From a virus: a stretch of 41,397 nucleotides of DNA. The position numbers and the translations under genes were made by a program. Position 1 is the first letter of the stretch. The number at the start of each line of letters is the position of its first letter. The DNA is taken from positions 1-41,397 of the IMG/VR virus record IMGVR_UViG_3300020122_000264; one strand, written 5' to 3'. Shown here piece after piece: positions 1,183 through 41,397 of this stretch. The notes beneath the pieces are model-generated. The model made no database searches and was not told the DNA's origin. It saw only the letters and a list, made by a program, of their open reading frames with translations.

Positions 1183-1211
1183 TTGACAACGTAGATGCAT
1201 GCATCTACAGC
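1183..1211 (+). promoter_or_regulatory. Probable promoter with 18-bp palindromic operator
   Basis: TTGACA at 1183-1188 is followed 17 bases later by TACAGC at 1206-1211, a weak -10 match. The spacer contains the perfect palindrome GTAGATGCATGCATCTAC (1191-1208). It lies 14 bases upstream of the ATG of a small HTH protein, the usual arrangement for autoregulation. The palindrome is direct; the operator role is inferred. Confidence 0.5.
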
Positions 1212-1222
1212 TAGCGTCCCCC

Positions 1223-1411
1223 ATGCTCAAGAATCGGCAGATCGCAGCGCTCACGGGTTGGACGGGGATAGACCCCCGAACGATCACTCGATGGTACGCG
1301 GGTTTCGCGGTGCGAGCTGAGACCGCGCGCTTGCTCGCGGATGCTGTGCGCGAGCACGACTACCCTCGCCCGCTGCATATGCCCTCAAAGAGCACGCGGA
1401 AGCGCACATGA
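1223..1411 (+). CDS. Small helix-turn-helix DNA-binding protein
   Basis: This 62-residue protein has a helix-turn-helix at about residues 3-25 (NRQIAALTGWTGIDPRTITR, with the turn at Gly-Trp-Thr-Gly). A second helix follows (AETARLLADAVREH) and then a basic tail. The architecture resembles minimal Cro/excisionase-like regulators. ATG 1223 is preferred over ATG 1199, because 1199 lies inside the 18-bp palindrome and would add residues without homology character. The stop overlaps the primase-helicase start (ATGA), so it may regulate its own transcript and the replication genes behind it. Whether it acts as repressor or activator is not visible. Confidence 0.65.
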   Translation: MLKNRQIAALTGWTGIDPRTITRWYAGFAVRAETARLLADAVREHDYPRPLHMPSKSTRKRT

Positions 1412-3468
1412 GCGCTGAAGCAGAGCGCTACATTGCAGAGGGCTGGCGAATCGTCCCGGTACCGCGCGGCGAGAAAGCGCCGAAAGAGGTAGGCTGGCCC
1501 GATACGGTCTGGACGGCCGAGCACGTCAACGGCGGAAACATTGGCGTCATCCTCGGCCCCGTCTCGAAGGGGCTCTGTGACATTGACTTGGACGCGCATT
1601 GGGCACTCGCGCTCGCGCCTCACTTCTTGCCCCCGACCGCGACCTTCGGACGTGCGAGCAAGCCCCGCTCGCATTGGCTGTACTACTGCGAAGGGCTCCG
1701 ATCGCAGCGCTTCACCTTCGAGCGCGAGGGTAAAGTCGAGCTCGTAGAAGTGCGGGGGCAGAACGCGAGCAACGACCGTTGCGGTCATCAATCCGTGTTT
1801 CCGGGCTCGACGCATAAGTCGGGCGAAGCGATTGAATGGGACCCTGAAGGTGCGGACGAGATTGCGCGCGTTGAGCGCGGCGCGCTGCTCTGGGCCGTCA
1901 CTCGGTTGAGCGTTGCGTGCGTGATTGCCGAGGGCTGGGAACCCGGGACGCAGCGCAACAATAAAGCGCGCGCGTGGTCTGCGGGGCTGCTCGCGCTCGG
2001 TTGGACGGCTGACGAAGTGCGCGAGCTCTTTGAGGCGGTTTACGTTGTCGCGGGCGTCGAAGAGGCGCAACGCGACAACGATCTCGGAGGCGTGCAGCGC
2101 ACCATCGAAGCGTTCGAACGCGGTGACAAGCTGCAAGGCTTTGGCACGCTCGTCGCTGACGGGCTGGTGCCTGAGAAGACAGTCCGGCGGGTCGAAGTGT
2201 TGGCGCGCACGCCTGCGAAGCTCGCGGCCGATGCGATGTTGGCGCGCAGCCGCGTGGGTGCAGACCTGCGCGAGCGCATCATCCGCGAAGCGCAAAACCT
2301 GGACGGGCTCGGAAAGCTCCAGGATCAAGCCGCGCTACTTTTGAAATCTCCCGCGGAAGACCCCGGGGGTCAAGAAACAGAGAATTTCTTCGGGAAGGAT
2401 TTGAGCATGACGGAGCGCAGCGCGCCCATCGAGTACGTGTGCGCCGAACTCGGGCTGGCGCCGGGCAAGATCAGTATCGTTGCCGGCTACTCCGGGACCA
2501 GCAAAGGCCCGTTTCTGAATCAGCTCGCGCTGTGCATCGCATCGGGCAAACATTTCCTCGGCTTCTCCGTGGCGCAGCGCAAGGTCGCGTTCTTCGATTT
2601 CGAGACGGGTGAACAGCTCATCCGAAACCGGATGTGGCGCATGGCCAACGCGCTCGGCATCGACCGCGCGGCGCTCGGCGAACAGCTTACGGTCTTCAGC
2701 TCAGCGCGGCGCATTGATGACGAATGGCTCACGAAGTTCGACGAGAGTGTTGAGCCCGGGATGGTTTGTTTCATCGACTCGTACACATCAGCCGTGACGG
2801 GTGAGATGAATTCGAGCGAGTACGCCTATGTTGCATGGCAGCTCGGCAAGATTTCGGAGCGGCGCAACGTGACCATCATCGTCGCGATGCACTCCCGGAA
2901 ATCGCAGCAAGGCCGCTCGAGTGCGTCGCTGCTCGAGGCCATCTCCGGCCACGCTTCGCTGTCAGCAGCAGCGCAGACCGCTATCCTCATCTCGCGGCCG
3001 AAGGAAACGAACGCTCATTTGATCGCGGTGAAGTGCGCGCGCGCTGTAGAAGATCCCTTTGCAGGTTTCGAGATTGCGTGGGCTGATGTGGCGGAGCCCG
3101 GGCAGCCGTTGATGACGCCAGGCGAAAAAGCGATGCACGGCAAATGGGGTCTACTTGCCAAGCGTGTCGAGTATGAGCGGTTTGACGAGAAAGCCGAAGC
3201 GCAGACGTTTGAGTCGCAGGTCACGGATGCCGAGCGTGCGCTGCTCTCACGCATGAGCCGTGAGTTTTCAGCGATGCAGGCTGGTGTGACTGAGCTCGTG
3301 CGCGAAGGCTCGAGCGCAACACGCCCAGCTCGCGCGAAAGCTATCCGGAACCTCGTGCAGCGCGGGATCTTGCTCGCGAATTTCCATTGGTCTTCGAACC
3401 AGCGCAGCGTTCGTCAATTAGTTTGGCTACCGGGCGAAAAAGCTGAAATAGGTATTGCGCAAGATTGA
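1408..3468 (+). CDS. Primase-polymerase / RepA-like helicase fusion
   Basis: This 686-residue replication protein has two modules. Residues about 5-170 match the bifunctional primase-polymerase (prim-pol) fold: LCDIDLD with acidic residues D58, D60 and D62, the basic/histidine motif RSHWLYY at 87-93, and a later VFPGSTH segment. Residues about 330-560 form a RecA-like ATPase of the RepA/AAA_25 helicase type. It has P-loop GYSGTSKGPF (361-370) and Walker B MVCFIDSY (453-460, D458). The P-loop is unusual in having Gly rather than Ser/Thr directly after the Lys. Such fusions synthesise primers and unwind DNA at phage and plasmid origins. It starts at an ATGA overlap with the HTH gene. Assignment is firm at the domain level and enzymatic details are inferred. 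Confidence 0.88.
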   Translation: MSAEAERYIAEGWRIVPVPRGEKAPKEVGWPDTVWTAEHVNGGNIGVILGPVSKGLCDIDLDAHWALALAPHFLPPTATFGRASKPRSHWLYYCEGLRSQRFTFEREGKVELVEVRGQNASNDRCGHQSVFPGSTHKSGEAIEWDPEGADEIARVERGALLWAVTRLSVACVIAEGWEPGTQRNNKARAWSAGLLALGWTADEVRELFEAVYVVAGVEEAQRDNDLGGVQRTIEAFERGDKLQGFGTLVADGLVPEKTVRRVEVLARTPAKLAADAMLARSRVGADLRERIIREAQNLDGLGKLQDQAALLLKSPAEDPGGQETENFFGKDLSMTERSAPIEYVCAELGLAPGKISIVAGYSGTSKGPFLNQLALCIASGKHFLGFSVAQRKVAFFDFETGEQLIRNRMWRMANALGIDRAALGEQLTVFSSARRIDDEWLTKFDESVEPGMVCFIDSYTSAVTGEMNSSEYAYVAWQLGKISERRNVTIIVAMHSRKSQQGRSSASLLEAISGHASLSAAAQTAILISRPKETNAHLIAVKCARAVEDPFAGFEIAWADVAEPGQPLMTPGEKAMHGKWGLLAKRVEYERFDEKAEAQTFESQVTDAERALLSRMSREFSAMQAGVTELVREGSSATRPARAKAIRNLVQRGILLANFHWSSNQRSVRQLVWLPGEKAEIGIAQD

Positions 3469-3822: not shown

Positions 3823-3893
3823 ATGATCCCTCGATCACAACGACAACGATCTCGCTGGAGCGGGAGCCGGAGCCGGAGCCGGAGCGGGAGCTT
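3823..3893 (+). repeat. Leader-hexamer element, copy A (6 units)
   Basis: A 33-nt leader begins with the TGA at 3824 and carries TGATCCCTCGATCAC then CGACAACGATCTCGC. Six GGAGCN units follow (3857-3892; sixth bases G,C,C,C,G,T), then one T before the ATG of the nuclease gene at 3894. The element is flanked by ATGA at both ends (3823-3826 and 3894-3897). Three longer copies lie at 9032, 12723 and 37461 with the same leader-to-array distance. Unlike the others, it starts 47 bases after the upstream stop. Confidence 0.9.
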
Positions 3894-3897
3894 ATGA
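3823..3897 (+). CDS. Ser-Arg repeat mini-ORF of copy A
   Basis: The element can be read as a 24-residue basic peptide, MIPRSQRQRSRW followed by Ser-Gly/Arg dipeptides and a terminal Leu. Its TGA stop overlaps the nuclease start as ATGA, so the frame would deliver ribosomes to that start. The same reading exists in the other three copies, with closely related N-termini. Translation is unproven, and it may simply be a coupling leader. Confidence 0.35.
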   Translation: MIPRSQRQRSRWSGSRSRSRSGSL

Positions 3898-5096
3898 CTC
3901 CGCAGTACACCGCGCGCGAGGGGTACGAGCCTCGCGCGCAGGTCTCGCCGTCAAGCATCAAACTCGCGCGCATGTGTGAGCGGGCCTGGGGCTATCGCTA
4001 CATTCTCGGACTCAAAGAGCCCGAGGCTGCATGGTCTGAGTTTTTGCCGGGAGCGCCGCGCGCGAAGCGTCCGACTGATCGTGAAGAGTTGAAGGCGTGG
4101 AACCGGCTATGGCGCCCAGCGCTCGGCAAGGCTGTACACTCGTGTCTCGAGGATTGGTACGCGGAGCGGCCTGTCGATTGGCATAGCGAACCCGGGAAGA
4201 TTCTGCTGCCTGCGCTGATGTACTTCCCACACCCGAAGCAGCTCGATTCATGGGTGACGGAAGAAAAACTTCCGGAGTGGTTCGTGAGCTCGTACACAGA
4301 GGGCAGGCACAACTACGAATTCAACGCCTACATCGACTTGAACGGATTGCAGTTCGGAGAGCATTCGAAGTTGCACTGCAACGATGCAAAGAGCACGTCG
4401 AGCTTCGACTGGGCGGCGAAGCCCGCGGAGCTACTCGAGGACACGCAAGGCATCATCTACCCGCTGTATGTGATGCAGAAGTACCGCGCTGAAGTCATCG
4501 AGCCGCGTTGGGTGTACATGCTGACGGAGGGCCAGCCGGCCGCGCGCGCTGTCGACTTTCGGGTGACGTACGACGGTGCCCGAAAGCGCGCGCTCAAAAT
4601 ATTCGACGAAGGCGCAGCGCTCATCGCGAAAATAAACGATCGCGCAGACCCGAATAGCTTGACTGCGAATCCCGCGGCGTGTGATATGTATCACCGCAAG
4701 TGTATCTATCACCACTCTGTTGGCGGGCCGTGTCAGGCCGAATCGTCACCAGGTAAAATGGCGCGCGCTTTTTTGGCACGTGGCCCGAAACAGGAAAGAA
4801 CAATCATGGCATTCAAACGAGTACTCGAAACTGCACAAGCAGGCAGCAACGAAAGCGCCGCGGGCGCGGAGCAAAACGAAAGCGCGACAGAGCCTGGTGA
4901 AGGCGCAGTCGAGCAGACTGAAGAGCAAAAGGCTGCTGCGAGCAAGCGCACCTACAACAAGAAGCCGAAGGCGCCCGTGGCGGGGGCAGGCGGCATCACC
5001 GTCACTTTCCACGACGGCTTTGCGCTCGAGCTGCCGGAGGCTTCGCCCATCGCAGCGAAGCTCACCGCGATCCACACTGCGATGTTTGGAGAATGA
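3894..5096 (+). CDS. Cas4/RecB-like PD-(D/E)XK nuclease
   Basis: This 400-residue protein carries the motifs of RecB-family nucleases: LGKAVHSCLEDW with H82, FNAYIDL with D148, DAKST with D164 and K166, and the QxxxY-type motif DTQGIIYPLYV around Q185. Cys28 (ARMCERAW) and a C-terminal trio Cys263, Cys270 and Cys280 match the four-cysteine iron-sulfur cluster of Cas4 and AddB proteins. It probably resects DNA ends during phage recombination. After residue 300 it has a disordered Glu/Ala/Lys tail and a short C-terminal domain; an internal ATG at 4806 with an AGGAAAG site could make that part separately. ATG 3894 is chosen over extension through the upstream hexamer array, because similarity begins at about residue 15. 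It overlaps the next gene as ATGA. Confidence 0.8.
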   Translation: MTPQYTAREGYEPRAQVSPSSIKLARMCERAWGYRYILGLKEPEAAWSEFLPGAPRAKRPTDREELKAWNRLWRPALGKAVHSCLEDWYAERPVDWHSEPGKILLPALMYFPHPKQLDSWVTEEKLPEWFVSSYTEGRHNYEFNAYIDLNGLQFGEHSKLHCNDAKSTSSFDWAAKPAELLEDTQGIIYPLYVMQKYRAEVIEPRWVYMLTEGQPAARAVDFRVTYDGARKRALKIFDEGAALIAKINDRADPNSLTANPAACDMYHRKCIYHHSVGGPCQAESSPGKMARAFLARGPKQERTIMAFKRVLETAQAGSNESAAGAEQNESATEPGEGAVEQTEEQKAAASKRTYNKKPKAPVAGAGGITVTFHDGFALELPEASPIAAKLTAIHTAMFGE

Positions 5097-5293
5097 GTAT
5101 GGCTCTCGACGCAGGGCAGCGCGCCGCGCTGCTGAAACTCAAAGCCGCGTGCAAAGCAGAGGGGCTCTCATCCTTCTGCGAGCGCACGGGGCTACACCGT
5201 TCGACCGTACAGGCTGTGCTTTCGGACACAGCGCGCGAGTCGAGTATCCTCATGGCTCTTGATCGCTTCGCGAAAGCCAAGCCGGCGGTCTGA
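5093..5293 (+). CDS. Small HTH protein
   Basis: This 66-residue helical protein has an HTH-like core at about residues 25-45 (SFCERTGLHRSTVQAVLSDT), which resembles the recognition region of Cro/C1-type regulators. It starts at the ATGA overlap with the nuclease; an ATG two codons later is an alternative. It could regulate transcription or act as a small DNA-binding accessory in recombination. The binding site is not identified. Confidence 0.6.
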   Translation: MSMALDAGQRAALLKLKAACKAEGLSSFCERTGLHRSTVQAVLSDTARESSILMALDRFAKAKPAV

Positions 5294-8769: not shown

Positions 8770-9035
8770 GCGAGCAGCGCCGCGGGCACGTGGGTGATTA
8801 CGATCAACCAAAGCCCGGCCCAAAGCCCGGTCACGACAACGTGAATTCACCAATGCACTATACCGCGCACCCCTCGGGTGTGGAGTGCATCCAGGTCACA
8901 GAGCACATGAATTTCAACATCGGGAACGCTGTGAAGTATCTGTGGCGCGCGGGGCTCAAGGGCGACACGCTCGAAGACCTGAAGAAGGCGCATTGGTACA
9001 TCGACCGCGAAATTCGCAGGATTGAGAAACCATGA
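8766..9035 (+). CDS. DUF3310 family protein
   Basis: This 89-residue protein has the DUF3310 pattern: SPMHYTAHPSGVECIQVTEH, FNIGNAVKYLWRAGLKG, then EDLKKAHWYIDREIRRIE. These proteins are very common beside phage nucleotide-metabolism and replication genes, and their biochemical role is not established. It starts at ATGA and ends at the TGA that opens repeat element copy B. Confidence 0.85.
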   Translation: MSEQRRGHVGDYDQPKPGPKPGHDNVNSPMHYTAHPSGVECIQVTEHMNFNIGNAVKYLWRAGLKGDTLEDLKKAHWYIDREIRRIEKP

Positions 9036-9384
9036 TCCCTCGATCACAACGACAACGAATTCGCCGGAGCGGGAGCCGGAACGGGAGCCGGAGCCGGAGC
9101 CGGAGCGGGAGCTGGAGCTGGAGCGGGAGCGGGAGCCGGAGCTGGAGCCGGAGCGGGAGCGGGAGCCGGAGCTGGAGCCGGAGCTGGAGCGGGAGCCGGA
9201 GCTGGAGCGGGAGCTGGAGCGGGAGCCGGAGCTGGAGCGGGAGCTGGAGCGGGAGCTGGAGCGGGAGCCGGAGCTGGAGCGGGAGCTGGAGCGGGAGCGG
9301 GAGCTGGAGCGGGAGCGGGAGCCGAAGCTGGAGCGGGAGCTGGAGCGGGAGCGGGAGCCGAAGCTGGAGCGGGAGCGGGAGCTT
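9032..9384 (+). repeat. Leader-hexamer element, copy B (53 units)
   Basis: This is the longest copy. The TGA of the DUF3310 gene (9033-9035) is the first triplet of the leader, and the array begins 33 bases later. Fifty-three hexamers run from 9066 to 9383, nearly all GGAGCG, GGAGCC or GGAGCT. Exceptions are GGAACG at 9078 and GAAGCT at 9325 and 9360. The sixth base is never A. The right half shows higher-order repetition (GGAGCC-GGAGCT-GGAGCG blocks). One T separates the array from the polymerase ATG (9385). Short-read assembly may have mis-sized a 318-bp array. Confidence 0.93.
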
Positions 9385-9388
9385 ATGA
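9032..9388 (+). CDS. Ser-Gly/Arg/Trp dipeptide-repeat ORF of copy B
   Basis: The element encodes a 118-residue basic protein: MIPRSQRQRIRRS, then uninterrupted Ser-X dipeptides (X is Gly, Arg or Trp) and a terminal Ser-Leu. The start overlaps the upstream stop as ATGA and the stop overlaps the polymerase start as ATGA, the coupling style used throughout this genome. Both GAAGCT units are silent in this frame (CGG to CGA, Arg). The composition recalls RS-rich RNA-binding segments. It could also be only a coupling device, and expression is unproven. Confidence 0.4.
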   Translation: MIPRSQRQRIRRSGSRNGSRSRSRSGSWSWSGSGSRSWSRSGSGSRSWSRSWSGSRSWSGSWSGSRSWSGSWSGSWSGSRSWSGSWSGSGSWSGSGSRSWSGSWSGSGSRSWSGSGSL

Positions 9389-12116: not shown

Positions 12117-12726
12117 AATACTCAAAGCTGAATTCAAAGTCGACATGCTCACCATAACGGCGCTGCACTCGCAGGCGACAAAGGAGGCAGCGTTGCTTGC
12201 GGGCGCGAGCATCGACAACGATGAAGACGCAGCTGACGCGAACGCCTCGCTGAAGGATTGGCTTTCGAAACTCGACAAGGTTTCGAAGATGAAGAAGGAG
12301 ACGCTCGCACCGCTGAAAGAGGCCGAGAAGCGCATCAACGATCTCTTCAAGCCGCTGCTCGACAAGGGCCAGGCGCTGACGGGGCACGTCCGGGGGATGC
12401 TCGAGCGCTACGAACTCGAGAAGCGCGCAGCACAGCGCGAGGCTATGGCGAAAGCTGCTGAAGCTGCGCAGCTCGCCGAGCCGGAGGCGCTGCTCGAGGC
12501 ACTCACGGAAGCTGAAGACGCAGCACCCGTGAAGCTCGAAGGCACCAGCTTCCGACGGGTGTGGGCAATCAAGCGCATCGTAGAGGGGTTACTCCCGGAC
12601 GAATATTGGATCGTCGACACGAAGCGCATCGAAGCAGTCGGCAAAGCGTTCGCGAAAGATGAGAACCCGCCCGTGATTCCTGGCGTGGTCTGGGAAGAGC
12701 AGCTCTCGAGCACGGTGCGGCGATGA
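12109..12726 (+). CDS. Coiled-coil phage protein near recombination genes
   Basis: This 205-residue protein has a long charged helix at about residues 40-125 (LKDWLSKLDKVSKMKKETLA and following), then a C-terminal globular part with YWIVDTKRIEAVGKAF and a typical IPGVVWEEQ ending. I recognise this helix plus PGV-type tail from proteins often encoded next to phage SSB, nuclease and recombinase genes. The molecular function is not known to me. ATG 12109 lies within the end of the resolvase gene. The stop TGA is the first triplet of repeat element copy C. Confidence 0.65.
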   Translation: MSEILKAEFKVDMLTITALHSQATKEAALLAGASIDNDEDAADANASLKDWLSKLDKVSKMKKETLAPLKEAEKRINDLFKPLLDKGQALTGHVRGMLERYELEKRAAQREAMAKAAEAAQLAEPEALLEALTEAEDAAPVKLEGTSFRRVWAIKRIVEGLLPDEYWIVDTKRIEAVGKAFAKDENPPVIPGVVWEEQLSSTVRR

Positions 12727-12880
12727 CCCCTCGATCACACCGACAACGATTTCGCTGGAGCCGGAGCGGGAGCCTGAGCGGGAGCCGGAGCCGGAGCTGG
12801 AGCTGGAGCCTGAGCCGGAGCGGGAGCCGGAGCTGGAGCTGGAGCGGGAGCGGGAGCTGGAGCGGGAGCGGGAGCGCCTA
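12723..12880 (+). repeat. Leader-hexamer element, copy C (20 units)
   Basis: The leader begins with the upstream gene's stop (12724-12726), TGACCCCTCGATCAC then CGACAACGATTTCGC. Twenty hexamers follow exactly 33 bases later (12757-12876), including TGAGCG at 12775 and TGAGCC at 12811. The right boundary differs from the other copies: CCTA then GTG 12881. It is three bases longer than in A, B and D, so the frame relation to the downstream gene is kept. Confidence 0.9.
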
Positions 12881-33983: not shown

Positions 33984-34213
33984 GATGCAGCGTACACTTC
34001 CTCATCCAACTTTTTGCGGATGGCTTTCGCTTTCTCTTCGTACTCTTCAGGCGTTAGGTGTTCAGGCGGTTGGTCAACAACGACGGGGTATCCGACGACG
34101 GCTTGAGCGAATTCGAGCTCGAGCCCGTCGACTTTTGCGCGGATGACGCCGAGCTCTTTCAAGCCCTTCGCCAGCTCGAGCACTTCACCAGCTGTGCGCA
34201 GATTCTCGGCCAT
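33980..34213 (-). CDS. Small helical protein between terminase and portal
   Basis: This 77-residue protein begins MAENLRTAGEVLELAKGLKE and ends in a charged helix, PEEYEEKAKAIRKKLDEEVY. The start at 34213 lies within the terminase C-terminus, after GAGAGA. It is likely a packaging or head-assembly accessory. The pattern LxxAxxLKELGVxxxxVDGLELEF is similar to small phage proteins preceding portals, whose function I cannot name. Confidence 0.65.
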   Translation of the reverse strand: MAENLRTAGEVLELAKGLKELGVIRAKVDGLELEFAQAVVGYPVVVDQPPEHLTPEEYEEKAKAIRKKLDEEVYAAS

Positions 34214-35762
34214 CGTCTCTCTCTTCCAGCCAGTGCTCTGGCTCTTTTTCGTGAGTGTCATTGAATAGTTCGTACTCATCATCGTTACGCGGGCGCTCAC
34301 GGAGCTGCACCGTCGGGGTTGCGAGGTAGCGACCGCAGAGCAGCGCGAGCATCGCCGCCAAATCGCAGTGCCTGCCGTCAGCCGTCACGCTCAAGACAAT
34401 GCTCACGCGGTCTGCGTTCGCCTTCTTCTTGATGTTCAGCAAATCCGAACGCAGCTGCGGGTCGGGCGGGATTTCTAACATCCCCGCGTCGAAGCGCGTG
34501 CGCATCGACTCGTACATGTTGAGTTTGATTGCGGGGGTAATGGTGATGGGCGCAATCATGATGCCGAGATCCATCGCAATGTCACGCAGCGCGTCTGCCA
34601 TGTACTGGTCGGTAAGCAGTACTTCGACGTGATACTTCTCAAGCATCGGGCGCATTTCGAGGAAGACTTCTTTAGGGCTCAGCGGATCGCTCGGCGTGCC
34701 CGTCCACTCGTGCGTCATCGCCACGCGAAAGCGCTTATTGTCCGTCGTGTCGGCGATACCGAAGGACCAGGAGTTGCCGCGCGTACCTGGATCCATCACC
34801 GCTGTGTAGACGCACGCCGGGTCGTATTCGAGCACAGCCTTGTCTTGCTCGCGCATCGCACCGTCGACACTCTGAGCCGACAAGAGCTGCGTCACCGCAT
34901 CGCGGAACTGCGCGAGCACGTCTGTCTTGTACGCCTCGGGATCGAGCTGCTTCAGCTCTTCACAGCGCTCGGGCGTCCAATTGCTCGGGTTCATCATCGG
35001 CCCGGGGGCGCGCACGATGACGGCCTTCTGCGCTTTGTTCTGCCAATGAGCTTCAACCAGATTGAAGACGAAGCCGGTCGGCCCGACCGGGCTCCCGATG
35101 TACATAATCATCGCACCGTCGAGCATGCGGCTACGAACCGCGCGCACGCTCTCTTCGAGGCTTACTGCAGCTCCGTCTTGTTCGGTTGCAATGCGCGGGG
35201 CTTCGTCGAAGATGACGCCTGCGCTCCAGCGACCAACAAGAGATGCACCAGAGCGGCTCGCCGGCACGACGCGGATCTCAATCTCGCAACCTGACGGATG
35301 ACGGACAAAGATTGAATCAACAGTGGGGGCCCGAGTAAGCAAACCGCGTAGGGCTTCACTCGCCTCGAAAGCGCCTCTAAGGTATCCAAAAGCCGCATTC
35401 GCTAACTCCGTTGTGACGGACACGATCGAAATGCGGGGCACCTCTCCGGGCCGGATGTTCTTGCCGGCGCCCTTGTCGAGCCGCACGTGCTGGCTCGCAT
35501 AGACCGCGCACGCGCAAGCGATGAAAGTCTTCCCGCCGCGCGTGCCGCTCATGATGCACAGCTCTTTGATGGGCTGCGCCGGCTGCACGCCCCCGAAGTA
35601 CTCGAGCAGCTCTTCGGGGACGGGCTTCCCCTCAACCGCTCGCAAAATCCCGCGTTGCAGTGCTGTAGCTTCGCTGATGCCGAAGCCCTGGTCGCTCGTG
35701 AACAACGTCTCGAGTGACGAGAGCAGCCGCAAGCGCTGGGATTCTGCGAGCAGTGAGCGCAT
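34185..35762 (-). CDS. Terminase large subunit
   Basis: This 525-residue packaging motor has the ATPase P-loop SGTRGGKT (72-79) and Walker B GVIFDEAPR (D186, E187). The nuclease domain shows acidic positions VYTAVMDPGTRGN (D324) and EVLLTDQYMAD (D385). It translocates DNA into the procapsid and cuts concatemers. It is coupled to the small gene upstream (35765-36001). I do not see a clear small-terminase gene; the short - strand genes at 35765-36524 are the positional candidates. Confidence 0.9.
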   Translation of the reverse strand: MRSLLAESQRLRLLSSLETLFTSDQGFGISEATALQRGILRAVEGKPVPEELLEYFGGVQPAQPIKELCIMSGTRGGKTFIACACAVYASQHVRLDKGAGKNIRPGEVPRISIVSVTTELANAAFGYLRGAFEASEALRGLLTRAPTVDSIFVRHPSGCEIEIRVVPASRSGASLVGRWSAGVIFDEAPRIATEQDGAAVSLEESVRAVRSRMLDGAMIMYIGSPVGPTGFVFNLVEAHWQNKAQKAVIVRAPGPMMNPSNWTPERCEELKQLDPEAYKTDVLAQFRDAVTQLLSAQSVDGAMREQDKAVLEYDPACVYTAVMDPGTRGNSWSFGIADTTDNKRFRVAMTHEWTGTPSDPLSPKEVFLEMRPMLEKYHVEVLLTDQYMADALRDIAMDLGIMIAPITITPAIKLNMYESMRTRFDAGMLEIPPDPQLRSDLLNIKKKANADRVSIVLSVTADGRHCDLAAMLALLCGRYLATPTVQLRERPRNDDEYELFNDTHEKEPEHWLEERDDGRESAHSW

Positions 35763-37210: not shown

Positions 37211-37464
37211 TTCGCTTCATCCTCGCGTGCTTGCTCTATCTGTTCGCTGTCGGCTGCTCTGGAAACACCGGGGGTAACGATCCGAACTTGCCCCCGAAGA
37301 CGCCACCCCCGTCGAAACCCGCAGAGATGCCGTGCCCCGCAACGCAGGCGATGTTTGTATGCACAACACCAGGACAGTCGTGCTGGTTCTACCGGGATGC
37401 GCATTCGCAAACGCTCTGCACGTGCGATGCCGATGGCGATAGCGTTTGCGGGGTGGTCGGGTGA
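37207..37464 (+). CDS. Cys-rich lipoprotein
   Basis: This 85-residue protein has a signal peptide II: MIRF, a hydrophobic run (ILACLLYLFAVG) and the lipobox Cys after AVG. The mature part has a Pro-rich linker (NLPPKTPPPSKPAEMPCPAT) and seven more Cys in 43 residues, implying disulfides or a small knot. It would sit in the host envelope. Small phage lipoproteins often block receptors (superinfection exclusion), but that is inference. A strong AAGGAG precedes the ATG. Its TGA opens repeat element copy D. Confidence 0.65.
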   Translation: MIRFILACLLYLFAVGCSGNTGGNDPNLPPKTPPPSKPAEMPCPATQAMFVCTTPGQSCWFYRDAHSQTLCTCDADGDSVCGVVG

Positions 37465-37657
37465 CCCCTCGATCACGGCGACAACGATTTCGCCGGAGCC
37501 GGAGCCGGATCCGGAGCTGGAGCCGGAGCTGGAGCGGGAGCGGGAGCCGGAGCTGGAGCCGGAGCTGGAGCGGGAGCCGGAGCTGGAGCGGGAGCCGGAG
37601 CTGGAGCGGGAGCCGGAGCCGGAGCGGGAGCGGGAGCTGGAGCGGGAGCCGGAGCCT
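37461..37657 (+). repeat. Leader-hexamer element, copy D (27 units)
   Basis: The leader begins with the lipoprotein stop (37462-37464). It reads TGACCCCTCGATCAC, then CGACAACGATTTCGC, and the array begins 33 bases after the TGA. Twenty-seven hexamers run from 37495 to 37656. All are GGAGCG/C/T except one GGATCC at 37507. A single T then precedes the ATG of the glycosyltransferase-like gene. The array has clear period-18 order (GGAGCC-GGAGCT-GGAGCG) in its middle. Confidence 0.92.
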
Positions 37658-37661
37658 ATGA
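37461..37661 (+). CDS. Ser-Gly/Arg/Trp repeat ORF of copy D
   Basis: This 66-residue basic ORF would start at GTG in a GTGA overlap with the lipoprotein stop (VTPRSRRQRFRRS at the start). It runs through Ser-X dipeptides and ends in a TGA overlapping the downstream ATG as ATGA. The GTG start makes translation less certain than in copies B and C. The N-terminal PRS-x-RQR core is shared with the other three copies. Confidence 0.35.
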   Translation: MTPRSRRQRFRRSRSRIRSWSRSWSGSGSRSWSRSWSGSRSWSGSRSWSGSRSRSGSGSWSGSRSL

Positions 37662-38703: not shown

Positions 38704-38713
38704 TCAGCGGGGC
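38683..38713 (-). terminator. GC hairpins at the convergent junction
   Basis: CCCC-GCA-GGGG (38683-38693) and GCCCCG (38695-38700) paired with CGGGGC (38708-38713) around CCCTCAG form two tight hairpins. The second loop includes the stop codon of the - strand gene. No U-tract follows on either strand, so this would be a weak or factor-assisted terminator. Confidence 0.35.
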
Positions 38714-39129
38714 TTCCGCCCCCGCACGACGCCAGCGCGCGGCGCAACCGCTGGCGTAGCAACCCCCGCAGTGCGAGAGGCAACCCACTGCTCATCACTG
38801 ACGGCGGGATCTTCCCAGGCTGCGAGCACGGCGCGTAGCTCGGCGATAGCCTGCGCGCGGTCGAGCGTGCCGATGCTCTCGACCGAGCTAAGCGCGCGAG
38901 CGTGATAGTCGGCAATGAGCTTGGCGCCCATCTCGAGCGCTTTGAGCACAGCCGTGCTGTCAGGATCTGCGTACACCTCGCGCCCCGAGCTGCGCTGGCG
39001 CGACTTGGCCGCCAGAATTGCGGCGTCCAGCGCTCGCAATTGCTCGACCAACCGATCTCGCGGGTCGATCACGTCCAATTGTTCGGCCAGTGAGCCCATA
39101 TTGCGCTTGATCCCGCGTAAGGAGATCAC
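38704..39129 (-). CDS. Helical protein, unknown, next to origin-like region
   Basis: This 141-residue protein has a charged helical body (RDRLVEQLRALDAAILAAKS, LKALEMGAKLIADYHARA) and a C-terminal Pro/Ala/Arg tail (TAGVATPAVAPRAGVVRGRK). The start codon at 39129 is GTG; an ATG at 39096 (MGSLAEQL) is a good alternative. The palindrome CTATCGATAG lies just upstream (39130-39139). Its closeness to the repeat-rich region makes a replication or packaging role possible, including a small-terminase-like one, but no motif shows it. Confidence 0.55.
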   Translation of the reverse strand: MISLRGIKRNMGSLAEQLDVIDPRDRLVEQLRALDAAILAAKSRQRSSGREVYADPDSTAVLKALEMGAKLIADYHARALSSVESIGTLDRAQAIAELRAVLAAWEDPAVSDEQWVASRTAGVATPAVAPRAGVVRGRKPR

Positions 39130-39209
39130 TCTATCGATAGGCTAGACCGATAGGCCGCGCAAGTCGGGCGCGTTTCGCGAGGTAATCAGCCAGGGCGCGC
39201 CGCGCAACA

Positions 39210-39263
39210 CCCGGCACAACGCCCGGCACAACGCGCAAAAACCCCGTCAACACCCGGCACAAC
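39210..39263. repeat. Three CCCGGCACAAC repeats
   Basis: The 11-mer CCCGGCACAAC occurs at 39210-39220, 39222-39232 and 39253-39263. The first two are adjacent (12-bp period) and the third is 31 bp further on. Together they form a compact direct-repeat cluster in the same non-coding region as the iteron-like set. It is a possible protein-binding site. Confidence 0.6.
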
Positions 39264-39390
39264 ACGCCCGAATCAGCGCTCGGGGCCGAGTGACATCACT
39301 GCGGGAGCGCTGGCGGACACGGGCAACGCTAGGCCATTATCCCTGCATTTCACCGGTTTGAAACTAGCACGCAAAAACCTGCGCTGTGTA

Positions 39391-39419
39391 CGGGGGGATA
39401 GATAGGAGACTACCCCCCG
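39391..39419. other. GC-stem hairpin in origin-like region
   Basis: CGGGGGG (39391-39397) pairs with CCCCCCG (39413-39419) with a 15-base AT/AG-rich loop. It sits between the CCCGGCACAAC cluster and the iteron-like repeats. It may be a single-strand origin or primer-initiation structure, or a transcription stop on either strand. Confidence 0.4.
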
Positions 39420-39476
39420 CTATCACTGGTGTTTTGGGCTTGATATTTTCCTCAATGATTACGCGCTTTCGGCCAC

Positions 39477-39702
39477 TAAAACCCAATCCTTAAACCCAGA
39501 GCGGTTTGGGCTTACGATAATGAATAATAACGCGCACTTGCATTCCTAATTTCCTTAAACCCAGCTAAAACCCAGAGGCGGAAAACTAGCAAATTGGGCC
39601 GATGGGTTTAAGGAATCGAAAGCGCTAAAACCCAGAGCAATATCGGCTTCTTACCATCCGGACAACGCGCTGGGTTTAAGGATTGGCCCGATGGGTTTAA
39701 GG
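39477..39702. repeat. Iteron-like TTAAACCCAG repeats, both orientations
   Basis: CCTTAAACCCAG occurs at 39488-39499 and 39553-39564, and its complement CTGGGTTTAAGG at 39670-39681. GATGGGTTTAAGG is at 39601-39613 and 39690-39702. TAAAACCCA variants lie at 39477-39485, 39566-39574 and 39625-39633. Eight copies in 226 bases in two orientations, in an AT-richer patch, resemble initiator iterons. They are far denser than chance. No gene covers them. Confidence 0.7.
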
Positions 39703-39735
39703 ATTCGGACCCCTTCGAATGACCATATACGATTC

Positions 39736-39948
39736 TTACTTGCGCACCCTCGCAAGCCGTCGCGAACACGTCATGCAAAGCGTGTTCGTTCCGTAGTCGT
39801 GCGGCCAGCGGGATAGCGCGGGGCGCTCCGCCTTGACGGCATGCCCTGGCGCCAATCGCTTCCCGCAAACTGTGAGTGTCGATTCCTTGCAGACGTGCAG
39901 CAGAATGTGCCAGTACGCGCCGTAGCGTGCTTTGACGTACTGCGTCAT
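39736..39948 (-). CDS. Small Cys/His-rich protein
   Basis: This 70-residue protein contains HILLHVCKESTLTVCGKRLA and NTLCMTCSRRLARVRK, so four Cys (with spaced His) could bind a zinc ion. Its ATG at 39948 overlaps the upstream stop as ATGA. It is the last gene of a three-gene operon and its end borders the origin-like region. The family is not recognised. Confidence 0.6.
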   Translation of the reverse strand: MTQYVKARYGAYWHILLHVCKESTLTVCGKRLAPGHAVKAERPALSRWPHDYGTNTLCMTCSRRLARVRK

Positions 39949-40178
39949 CTGAGCGCCACACACTGCGCGAGCTGAGCCAGCGCATCCAGACGCGACTCGC
40001 CGAAGTGCTCAGGGCCGTTGCCGAGCCGGCAGCACCACTGCACACCCACGGTGTACAGGTAGAGGGTCGCGCCTCTCTTGGGCCCGAGCTCAGTCTCGAG
40101 CACAGCCCAGATCCGGGCCTCACGCTCGGCCTCGGAGGGCACTACAGCCACGTTGCAATTGTGGAAGGTGTTGCTCAT
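39945..40178 (-). CDS. Small protein, unknown
   Basis: This 77-residue protein starts MSNTFHNCNVAVVPSEAERE. It has a conserved-looking strand region (LYLYTVGVQWCCRLGNGPEH) and a C-terminal helix (SRLDALAQLAQCVALR). The start at 40178 is in ATGA overlap with the previous gene and its stop overlaps the next by ATGA. The role is unknown. Confidence 0.6.
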   Translation of the reverse strand: MSNTFHNCNVAVVPSEAEREARIWAVLETELGPKRGATLYLYTVGVQWCCRLGNGPEHFGESRLDALAQLAQCVALR

Positions 40179-40597: not shown

Positions 40598-40761
40598 CAC
40601 ATCGTCCCAATCTTGGGGGAGGTTTTGACGGGCTTCTTCGGGGGCGTCGCAAGCGACGTGAAAACGAAGTGGGTGGGCATGTCCTCTGGTCATTGCAGGG
40701 CGCGTGCCAACACCGCGCAACGCGTAAACGCGCGATATGTGATTGCGCTGAGTAGAGAGTG

Positions 40762-40821
40762 AGCGGACAGGTGTCCGGGTAAAGCGGACAGGTGTCCGGG
40801 TAAAGCGGACAGGTGTCCGGC
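40762..40821. promoter_or_regulatory. Three 21-bp-phased inverted repeats (operator array)
   Basis: CGGACAGGTGTCCG (6-bp arms, 2-bp centre) occurs three times, at 40764-40777, 40785-40798 and 40806-40819. The spacing is exactly 21 bp, two helical turns. Each unit is preceded by an AG and the gaps contain GTAAAG. Dimeric proteins would therefore bind on one face of the DNA. The location between divergent operons fits a phage control region or an initiator-binding site. The binding protein is unknown; the HTH proteins at 1223 and 5093 are candidates. Confidence 0.75.
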
Positions 40822-40899: not shown

Positions 40900-41277
40900 A
40901 TGAGTATTGGCATGGCTAACACCCCTCCCACTGACAACGAAGTGAACGCAGCCCTCCGTGTGCTCCAGCGCGACTACCAAGACGATGTGCAAGGCATCGT
41001 GGACGAGATGCGCCGGCAGGTGCGCGACGGCGAGTGCGATGAGGATGACTTTTTTGAGCGACTCGACGAACAGATCGACGGGCACCAGCGCGTCATCTAC
41101 ACGGCCAAAGCGCGCGTTGGGCTGTGCTGCACCGACAACCCGGACGCCTATCAGGACGAGACGGGCGAGCTTGCGCCCGAGAGCGTAGAGGTCGCCATGT
41201 ACTACGCTTTGCGCGCGGATGTGACCGCGATTCTCGGCGACTTTGACGACGCCAAAAACTACACGGAGGGAGAATGA
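40900..41277 (+). CDS. Acidic early protein, unknown
   Basis: This 125-residue protein is acidic and helical (AALRVLQRDYQDDVQGIVDE, DEDDFFERLDEQIDGHQRVI). A CCTDNPDAYQDETGELAPES segment follows, then a hydrophobic-charged C-terminal helix. The ATG at 40900 and one at 40912 are both possible, and neither has a strong ribosome site. Its stop overlaps the next gene (at 41274, identical to position 4) as ATGA, with GGAGGG inside its last codons. It is the first gene of the rightward block; small acidic early proteins often target host factors. Confidence 0.65.
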   Translation: MSIGMANTPPTDNEVNAALRVLQRDYQDDVQGIVDEMRRQVRDGECDEDDFFERLDEQIDGHQRVIYTAKARVGLCCTDNPDAYQDETGELAPESVEVAMYYALRADVTAILGDFDDAKNYTEGE

Positions 41278-41397
41278 GCGCGCCAGAAGATCGTGTGAGC
41301 TGCAAGTACGGAGCCCCGATGGGGCGCGGTGCAGAAGCACCGTTAGTTGGCAAGGTGCGCATGCGCCGCGTGCGCCTCGACTCCGGAGGCTATGACC
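41271..41397. repeat. Terminal direct repeat, right copy
   Basis: This is an exact copy of positions 1-127. It contains the first 124 bases of the gene annotated at 4-282 (ATG at 41274), cut by the window end, and is the overlap by which the genome closes into a circle. It should not be counted as a second gene. Confidence 0.95.

Follow-up and report, generated by a model that had tools for sequence, protein, structure and literature searches.

A probable iteron-type replication origin in the genome of a phage encoding a PrimPol-helicase

The window, which is the whole stretch of 41,397 nucleotides analysed in this study, is the genome of a phage that carries its own PrimPol-helicase gene. 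The region at 39476-39701, probably with an adjoining GC hairpin, is likely to be the iteron-type replication origin of this phage, and we infer that replication starts here. The reading is based on the following observations: the iteron cluster is unique in the genome, its duplex stability is low, its setting is gene-free, and replication genes are present.

A weight-matrix scan of the genome found exactly eight sites, all at 39476-39701, with the consensus CTWAAACCCA. The matrix was built from the same eight iterons that it scores; these reached 14.4-28.2 bits, and the best site elsewhere in the genome reached 12.7 bits. Five sites are on the plus strand and three are on the minus strand (order ++ ++ - + - -), at spacings of 11-65 bp. 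The eight copies in both orientations that the earlier note had read from the letters were hence recovered, and at the right position. When up to one mismatch was allowed, TTAAACCCAG had seven copies at 39490-39700 and one elsewhere (shuffles expect 0.53). The number of 9-mer repeat pairs at 39435-39710 was 73, compared with a mean of 0.5 and a maximum of 5 in 500 dinucleotide shuffles. The eight sites and 73 pairs represent a short word clustered beyond chance, which is one hallmark of an iteron-type origin. Two iteron subtypes were distinguished. The A-subtype, CTAAAACCCA, occurs only on the plus strand, as iterons 1 (39476-39485), 4 (39565-39574), and 6 (39625-39634). CTTAAACCCA occurs on both strands, as iterons 2 (39489-39498) and 3 (39554-39563) on the plus strand and iterons 5 (39603-39612), 7 (39671-39680), and 8 (39692-39701) on the minus strand. 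Iteron 2 lies at the core of a 21-bp sequence that recurs inverted at 39666-39686 (95%), and iteron 8 lies in a 26-bp direct repeat (92%) common to iteron 5. The inverted iterons could pair as nested single-strand stems (246-nt region, z -3.6).

The cluster lies in a gene-free gap of 606 bp (39130-39735). None of the ORFs in this gap had clearly coding-like codon use, and the codon use of a leftward 171-aa ORF running into it was non-coding. On the 250-300 bp scale, G+C in the genome is lowest in the cluster region (0.46-0.47 vs 0.61), which is also the duplex-stability minimum at 250 bp; at the 40-100 bp scale, other places in the genome are equal or lower. The second hallmark of an iteron-type origin, an easily melted A+T-rich stretch beside the iterons, is also present: the A+T-rich patch at 39511-39552, the candidate melting element, has the third-lowest 60-bp duplex stability in the genome (from 39511), with two iterons to its left and six to its right. 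The hairpin CGGGGGG-A-TAG/CTA-CCCCCCG is located at 39391-39419 (z -3.2; 0/200 shuffles as stable). Repeat searches recovered a second repeat family, CAACRCCCGGCA-type 12-mers, at 39205-39265. The AT-richer gene-free stretch, the adjoining GC hairpin, and the nearby second repeat family, all proposed beforehand from the sequence, were thus borne out. Rfam and tRNA scans gave no match, and no DnaA box (TTWTNCACA) was present in 39130-39740. The gap neighbours, 39736-39963 and the small leftward gene at 38704-39129, had no Pfam match.

Since the gap is upstream of this leftward gene, which starts at 39129, and the genome encodes two small HTH-like proteins (1199-1411 and 5093-5293, both sub-threshold matches), the iterons could be operators through which a repressor or activator, such as the product of one of these two genes, controls 38704-39129 or wider transcription. 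We consider this unlikely. Eight sites are excessive for one small gene 350 bp off, no comparable site occurs elsewhere in the genome, and no sigma-70-like promoter was found around the cluster. Moreover, an operator is better suited by another array at 40762-40820, which consists of 2.8 copies of AGCGGACAGGTGTCCGGGTAA at a 21-bp period, includes CGGACAGGTGTCCG, a palindrome, and has divergent genes on either side. That array is likely an operator; it is also a rival origin candidate. If the true origin were elsewhere, for example at 40762-40820, the cluster would be an accessory replication enhancer or a remnant. The 21-bp direct tandem repeats of the array resemble classic iterons. The GC-skew check suggested in the earlier note was run and placed the detrended minimum at 40614, roughly 1 kb from the cluster and nearer to the array; however, the skew signal tracks gene direction and is contradicted by third codon positions, so that it is confounded and favours neither place. 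The array is also GC-richer (0.57), and its palindrome and divergent neighbours are operator-like. An origin outside the cluster is therefore very unlikely in our judgment.

The ends of the record are identical over 127 nt (1-127 and 41271-41397), which gives a circular map of 41,270 bp. Because 127 nt is a common assembler k-mer length, the end repeat is probably not a biological terminal repeat, and the phage genome may be circularly permuted. Among the rightward genes at 1-13 kb are those for the PrimPol with AAA_25, a family A polymerase, and helicase-like and exonuclease-like proteins; portal and large terminase are among the leftward genes at 13-36.5 kb. The prim-pol/helicase that the genome had been said to possess is encoded at 1408-3468 on the plus strand (Prim-Pol PF09250 and AAA_25 PF13481), approximately 3 kb from the iteron cluster on the circular map, and is the candidate initiator. 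Its start is overlapped by the gene at 1199-1411 (plus strand), whose 70-aa HTH-like product, recognised only from sub-threshold HTH matches, is a candidate co-initiator or repressor. AlphaFold models of the PrimPol, made for the whole protein and for the C-terminus in a winged-helix search, had pLDDT values of 42 and 53, too low for the models to be of use, and a binding domain was not identified in them.

Centromeres and some packaging sites typically have clustered repeats with inverted copies. The cluster has the same character, and circular permutation of the genome, if real, would also suit a site for packaging or segregation, to which a small terminase or a ParB-like protein would bind. 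Nevertheless, the large terminase gene (34185-35762) is about 3.7 kb away, and no ParA/ParB was noticed among the part of the ORF set that was searched. Such a site, which we regard as most unlikely, would also leave unexplained the A+T-rich minimum and the replication-gene setting seen in relatives.

Relatives were sought via PolA, PrimPol, portal, and MCP, and no relative with the same PrimPol was found by these searches. A tblastn search with the PrimPol returned six records, at 31-34% identity over approximately a quarter of the protein. The Microbacterium phages Hendrix, Leaf, and Rasputia (Rogerhendrixvirus) encode a DNA polymerase I as well as a related PrimPol. Directly 3' of PrimPol, each has a gene-free, A+T-richer gap of 367-421 bp (Hendrix L061:10287-10653; Leaf L184:6284-6688; Rasputia L185:6134-6554), in which no feature is annotated in these records. 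The core TTCTCAG occurs three to four times per gap in both orientations; the Hendrix genome has 11 copies, 4 of them in the gap, which is also the G+C minimum of these 97.8 kb. In all three gaps, 9-mer repeat pairs exceeded all mononucleotide shuffles, and each gap can form a GC-topped stem-loop of 139-140 nt (z -9.5 to -13.6 vs mononucleotide shuffles). DnaA-type boxes are TTATCCACA in Leaf and Rasputia and TTGTCCACA in Hendrix. These gaps are like the window in being A+T-richer and gene-free, in having a core in both orientations and a GC hairpin, and in the related PrimPol. They differ from it in the core itself, in the DnaA-type boxes, in the very large conserved stem-loop, and in adjoining PrimPol. 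The origin reading gains support from these relatives because they show the same anatomy beside the PrimPol gene. The mixed orientation of the iterons, which had been singled out as unlike simple plasmid iterons, does depart from the direct-repeat arrangement of the latter, but it is shared with the Rogerhendrixvirus gaps and is hence not unique. In the distant relative G004, TTTTGCCTACATGTGTG-type repeats in an A+T-rich stretch (L058:6921-6999) lie just past an ORF named DnaC-like from its translation only, and these repeats weakly support the origin reading.

In the collections searched, the only close relatives by virion module were G013 and a fragment, G012. G013 shares 71% identity with the window in portal, 79% in MCP, and 76% in terminase. 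The PrimPol of the window had no match in the G013 record (34 kb, perhaps incomplete); the replication gene of G013 is VapE-like (PF05272, E 7e-72) and adjoins an A+T-rich slot. On the other side of the slot is the ortholog of the small gene at 38704-39129 (26% over 107 aa, 0/1000 shuffles as good). The slot between these two genes is the stability minimum of G013 at every scale tested (40-250 bp), and its repeats exceed dinucleotide shuffles at k=9, although they are weaker than those of the window and differ in sequence. That the corresponding place beside the VapE-like gene is also A+T-rich lends further support to the origin reading. The position of the slot is conserved between the window and G013, and the repeat word is not; since the place is kept and the word is changed, this one pair would be compatible with the origin and the replication gene having been exchanged together.

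Four copies of a leader element, CCCTCGATCAC..CGACAACGAT, were observed elsewhere in the window (3823-3897, 9032-9388, 12723-12880, and 37461-37661). They precede GGAGCN hexamer arrays about 6 to 53 units long. In three of the four, the leader frame (MIPRSQRQR...SL) ends at an ATGA that overlaps the start of the next gene, and another frame is open straight into the DNA polymerase, exonuclease-like, and glycosyltransferase-like genes. The elements are possibly a duplicated translational leader. The leader pattern, used in IMG/VR to search for closer kin, had no match. At a contig end of G013 (L042:1-164), 12-bp tandem arrays of the CCACTCGGTCC type lie beside a DUF6745 gene and are perhaps comparable to the hexamer arrays of the window.

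The iteron motif was also searched for beyond the genome. Among the matches listed in IMG/VR, the two densest arrays examined (L067 and L086) look like in-frame coding repeats, and stricter motif variants found no mixed-orientation array outside the window in IMG/VR. The single-iteron pattern gave one match per contig, which was treated as scattered, and the few GCTGGGTTTAA-like copies that one intergenic stretch of L105, an unrelated phage, contains were treated as chance. BLASTN of the gap gave no match in phages and only chance-level matches in plasmids.

The candidate origin was compared with known systems. In a classic plasmid oriV, the iterons have one orientation and a spacing of ~20-22 bp, and the origin contains a DnaA box; the iterons of the window are mixed (five plus, three minus) and spaced 11-65 bp apart, and their gap is free of TTWTNCACA. 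RepA of RSF1010 belongs with the AAA_25-type helicases. The oriV of RSF1010 (RepC/RepA/RepB'), as discussed in PMC4234260, likewise combines iterons with helicase and primase functions and has the ssiA and ssiB stem-loops near the iterons. RSF1010 uses three separate proteins, whereas the window has one fused protein, and a RepC-like protein was not identified. In PICI origins, two iteron sets always surround an A+T-rich region, 3' of rep (PMC6092414). In the SaPI Rep and SCCmec Cch2 helicases, iteron binding is through C-terminal domains (PMC7581432). The window is similar to PICI/SaPI pri-rep-ori in its two sets of short iterons around an A+T-rich region and in its element-encoded primase and helicase (PMC6092414, PMC7581432). 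However, the PICI/SaPI origin is directly 3' of rep and roughly 3 kb lie between the cluster and PrimPol here, the protein of the window is Prim-Pol with AAA_25 and not PICI Rep, and the carrier is a tailed phage and not a satellite.

For pRN1 and phage BIP-1, the start has been proposed at a stem-loop 3' of the PrimPol gene (PMC4234260). Both are replicons of an AEP-type PrimPol-helicase and have a putative origin with strand-folding potential, as the window does (z -3.6), and pRN1 also encodes a small regulator upstream of the PrimPol-helicase (PMC4234260). They differ in that the stem-loop 3' of the gene is large, no iterons are thought to form the origin, and the helicase is SF3 (PMC4234260); the candidate origin of the window is dominated by iterons and has a small hairpin, and the helicase domain of its PrimPol is AAA_25. 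The region is not 3' of PrimPol, and the ~100-nt stem-loop of the pRN1 type is absent there. Because its position matches neither PICI nor pRN1, the window is filed only as a variant of iteron origins. The PrimPol of phage NrS-1 synthesises primers at a word of 8 nt with a single copy on each strand, and at GTG sites as well (PMC7102993, PMC8718748). NrS-1 is thus alike in having a phage PrimPol-helicase and specific words as proposed starts (PMC7102993, PMC8718748), but it has two copies of TTTGGTTA, and the window has eight copies of an unrelated 10-bp word.

We propose that an initiator would bind the iterons; we infer that the likeliest one is the phage PrimPol-helicase, possibly assisted by the small HTH protein whose gene overlaps its start. 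The repressor gene in the replication operon of pRN1 (PMC4234260) offers a parallel that makes this HTH-like protein the second candidate initiator. Iteron binding would melt the A+T patch at 39511-39552, the helicase domain would load, the PrimPol would then lay primers, and the phage family A polymerase would extend them. Given the arrangement of the iterons, the helicase might load in both directions.

Several observations count against the origin reading. The cluster is distant from PrimPol, and the gaps of the comparators adjoin a replication gene; the gap has no DnaA box; the array at 40762-40820 is a competing candidate; the searches recovered no relative that carries this motif array; and other places in the genome melt as easily at 40-60 bp. 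The probable origin of the earlier note remains the best explanation and now has comparative support from the PrimPol relatives and the G013 slot.

It is conceivable, if doubtful, that PrimPol-AAA_25 phages share an undescribed class of origin, in which a genome-minimum A+T gap would combine one bidirectional short word with a GC hairpin, and the fused PrimPol-helicase would recognise, melt, and prime it without a separate initiator. The word would be lineage-specific, and origin and replication gene would be exchanged together while the virion module stays. The origins of PrimPol-helicase phages are hardly known; the published proposals are a stem-loop (pRN1/BIP-1) and two 8-nt words (NrS-1). 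The window offers a compact candidate origin, with eight iterons around a defined melting patch and a single likely initiator, and it draws attention to matching, unannotated gaps in Hendrix, Leaf, and Rasputia, which are cultured Microbacterium phages.
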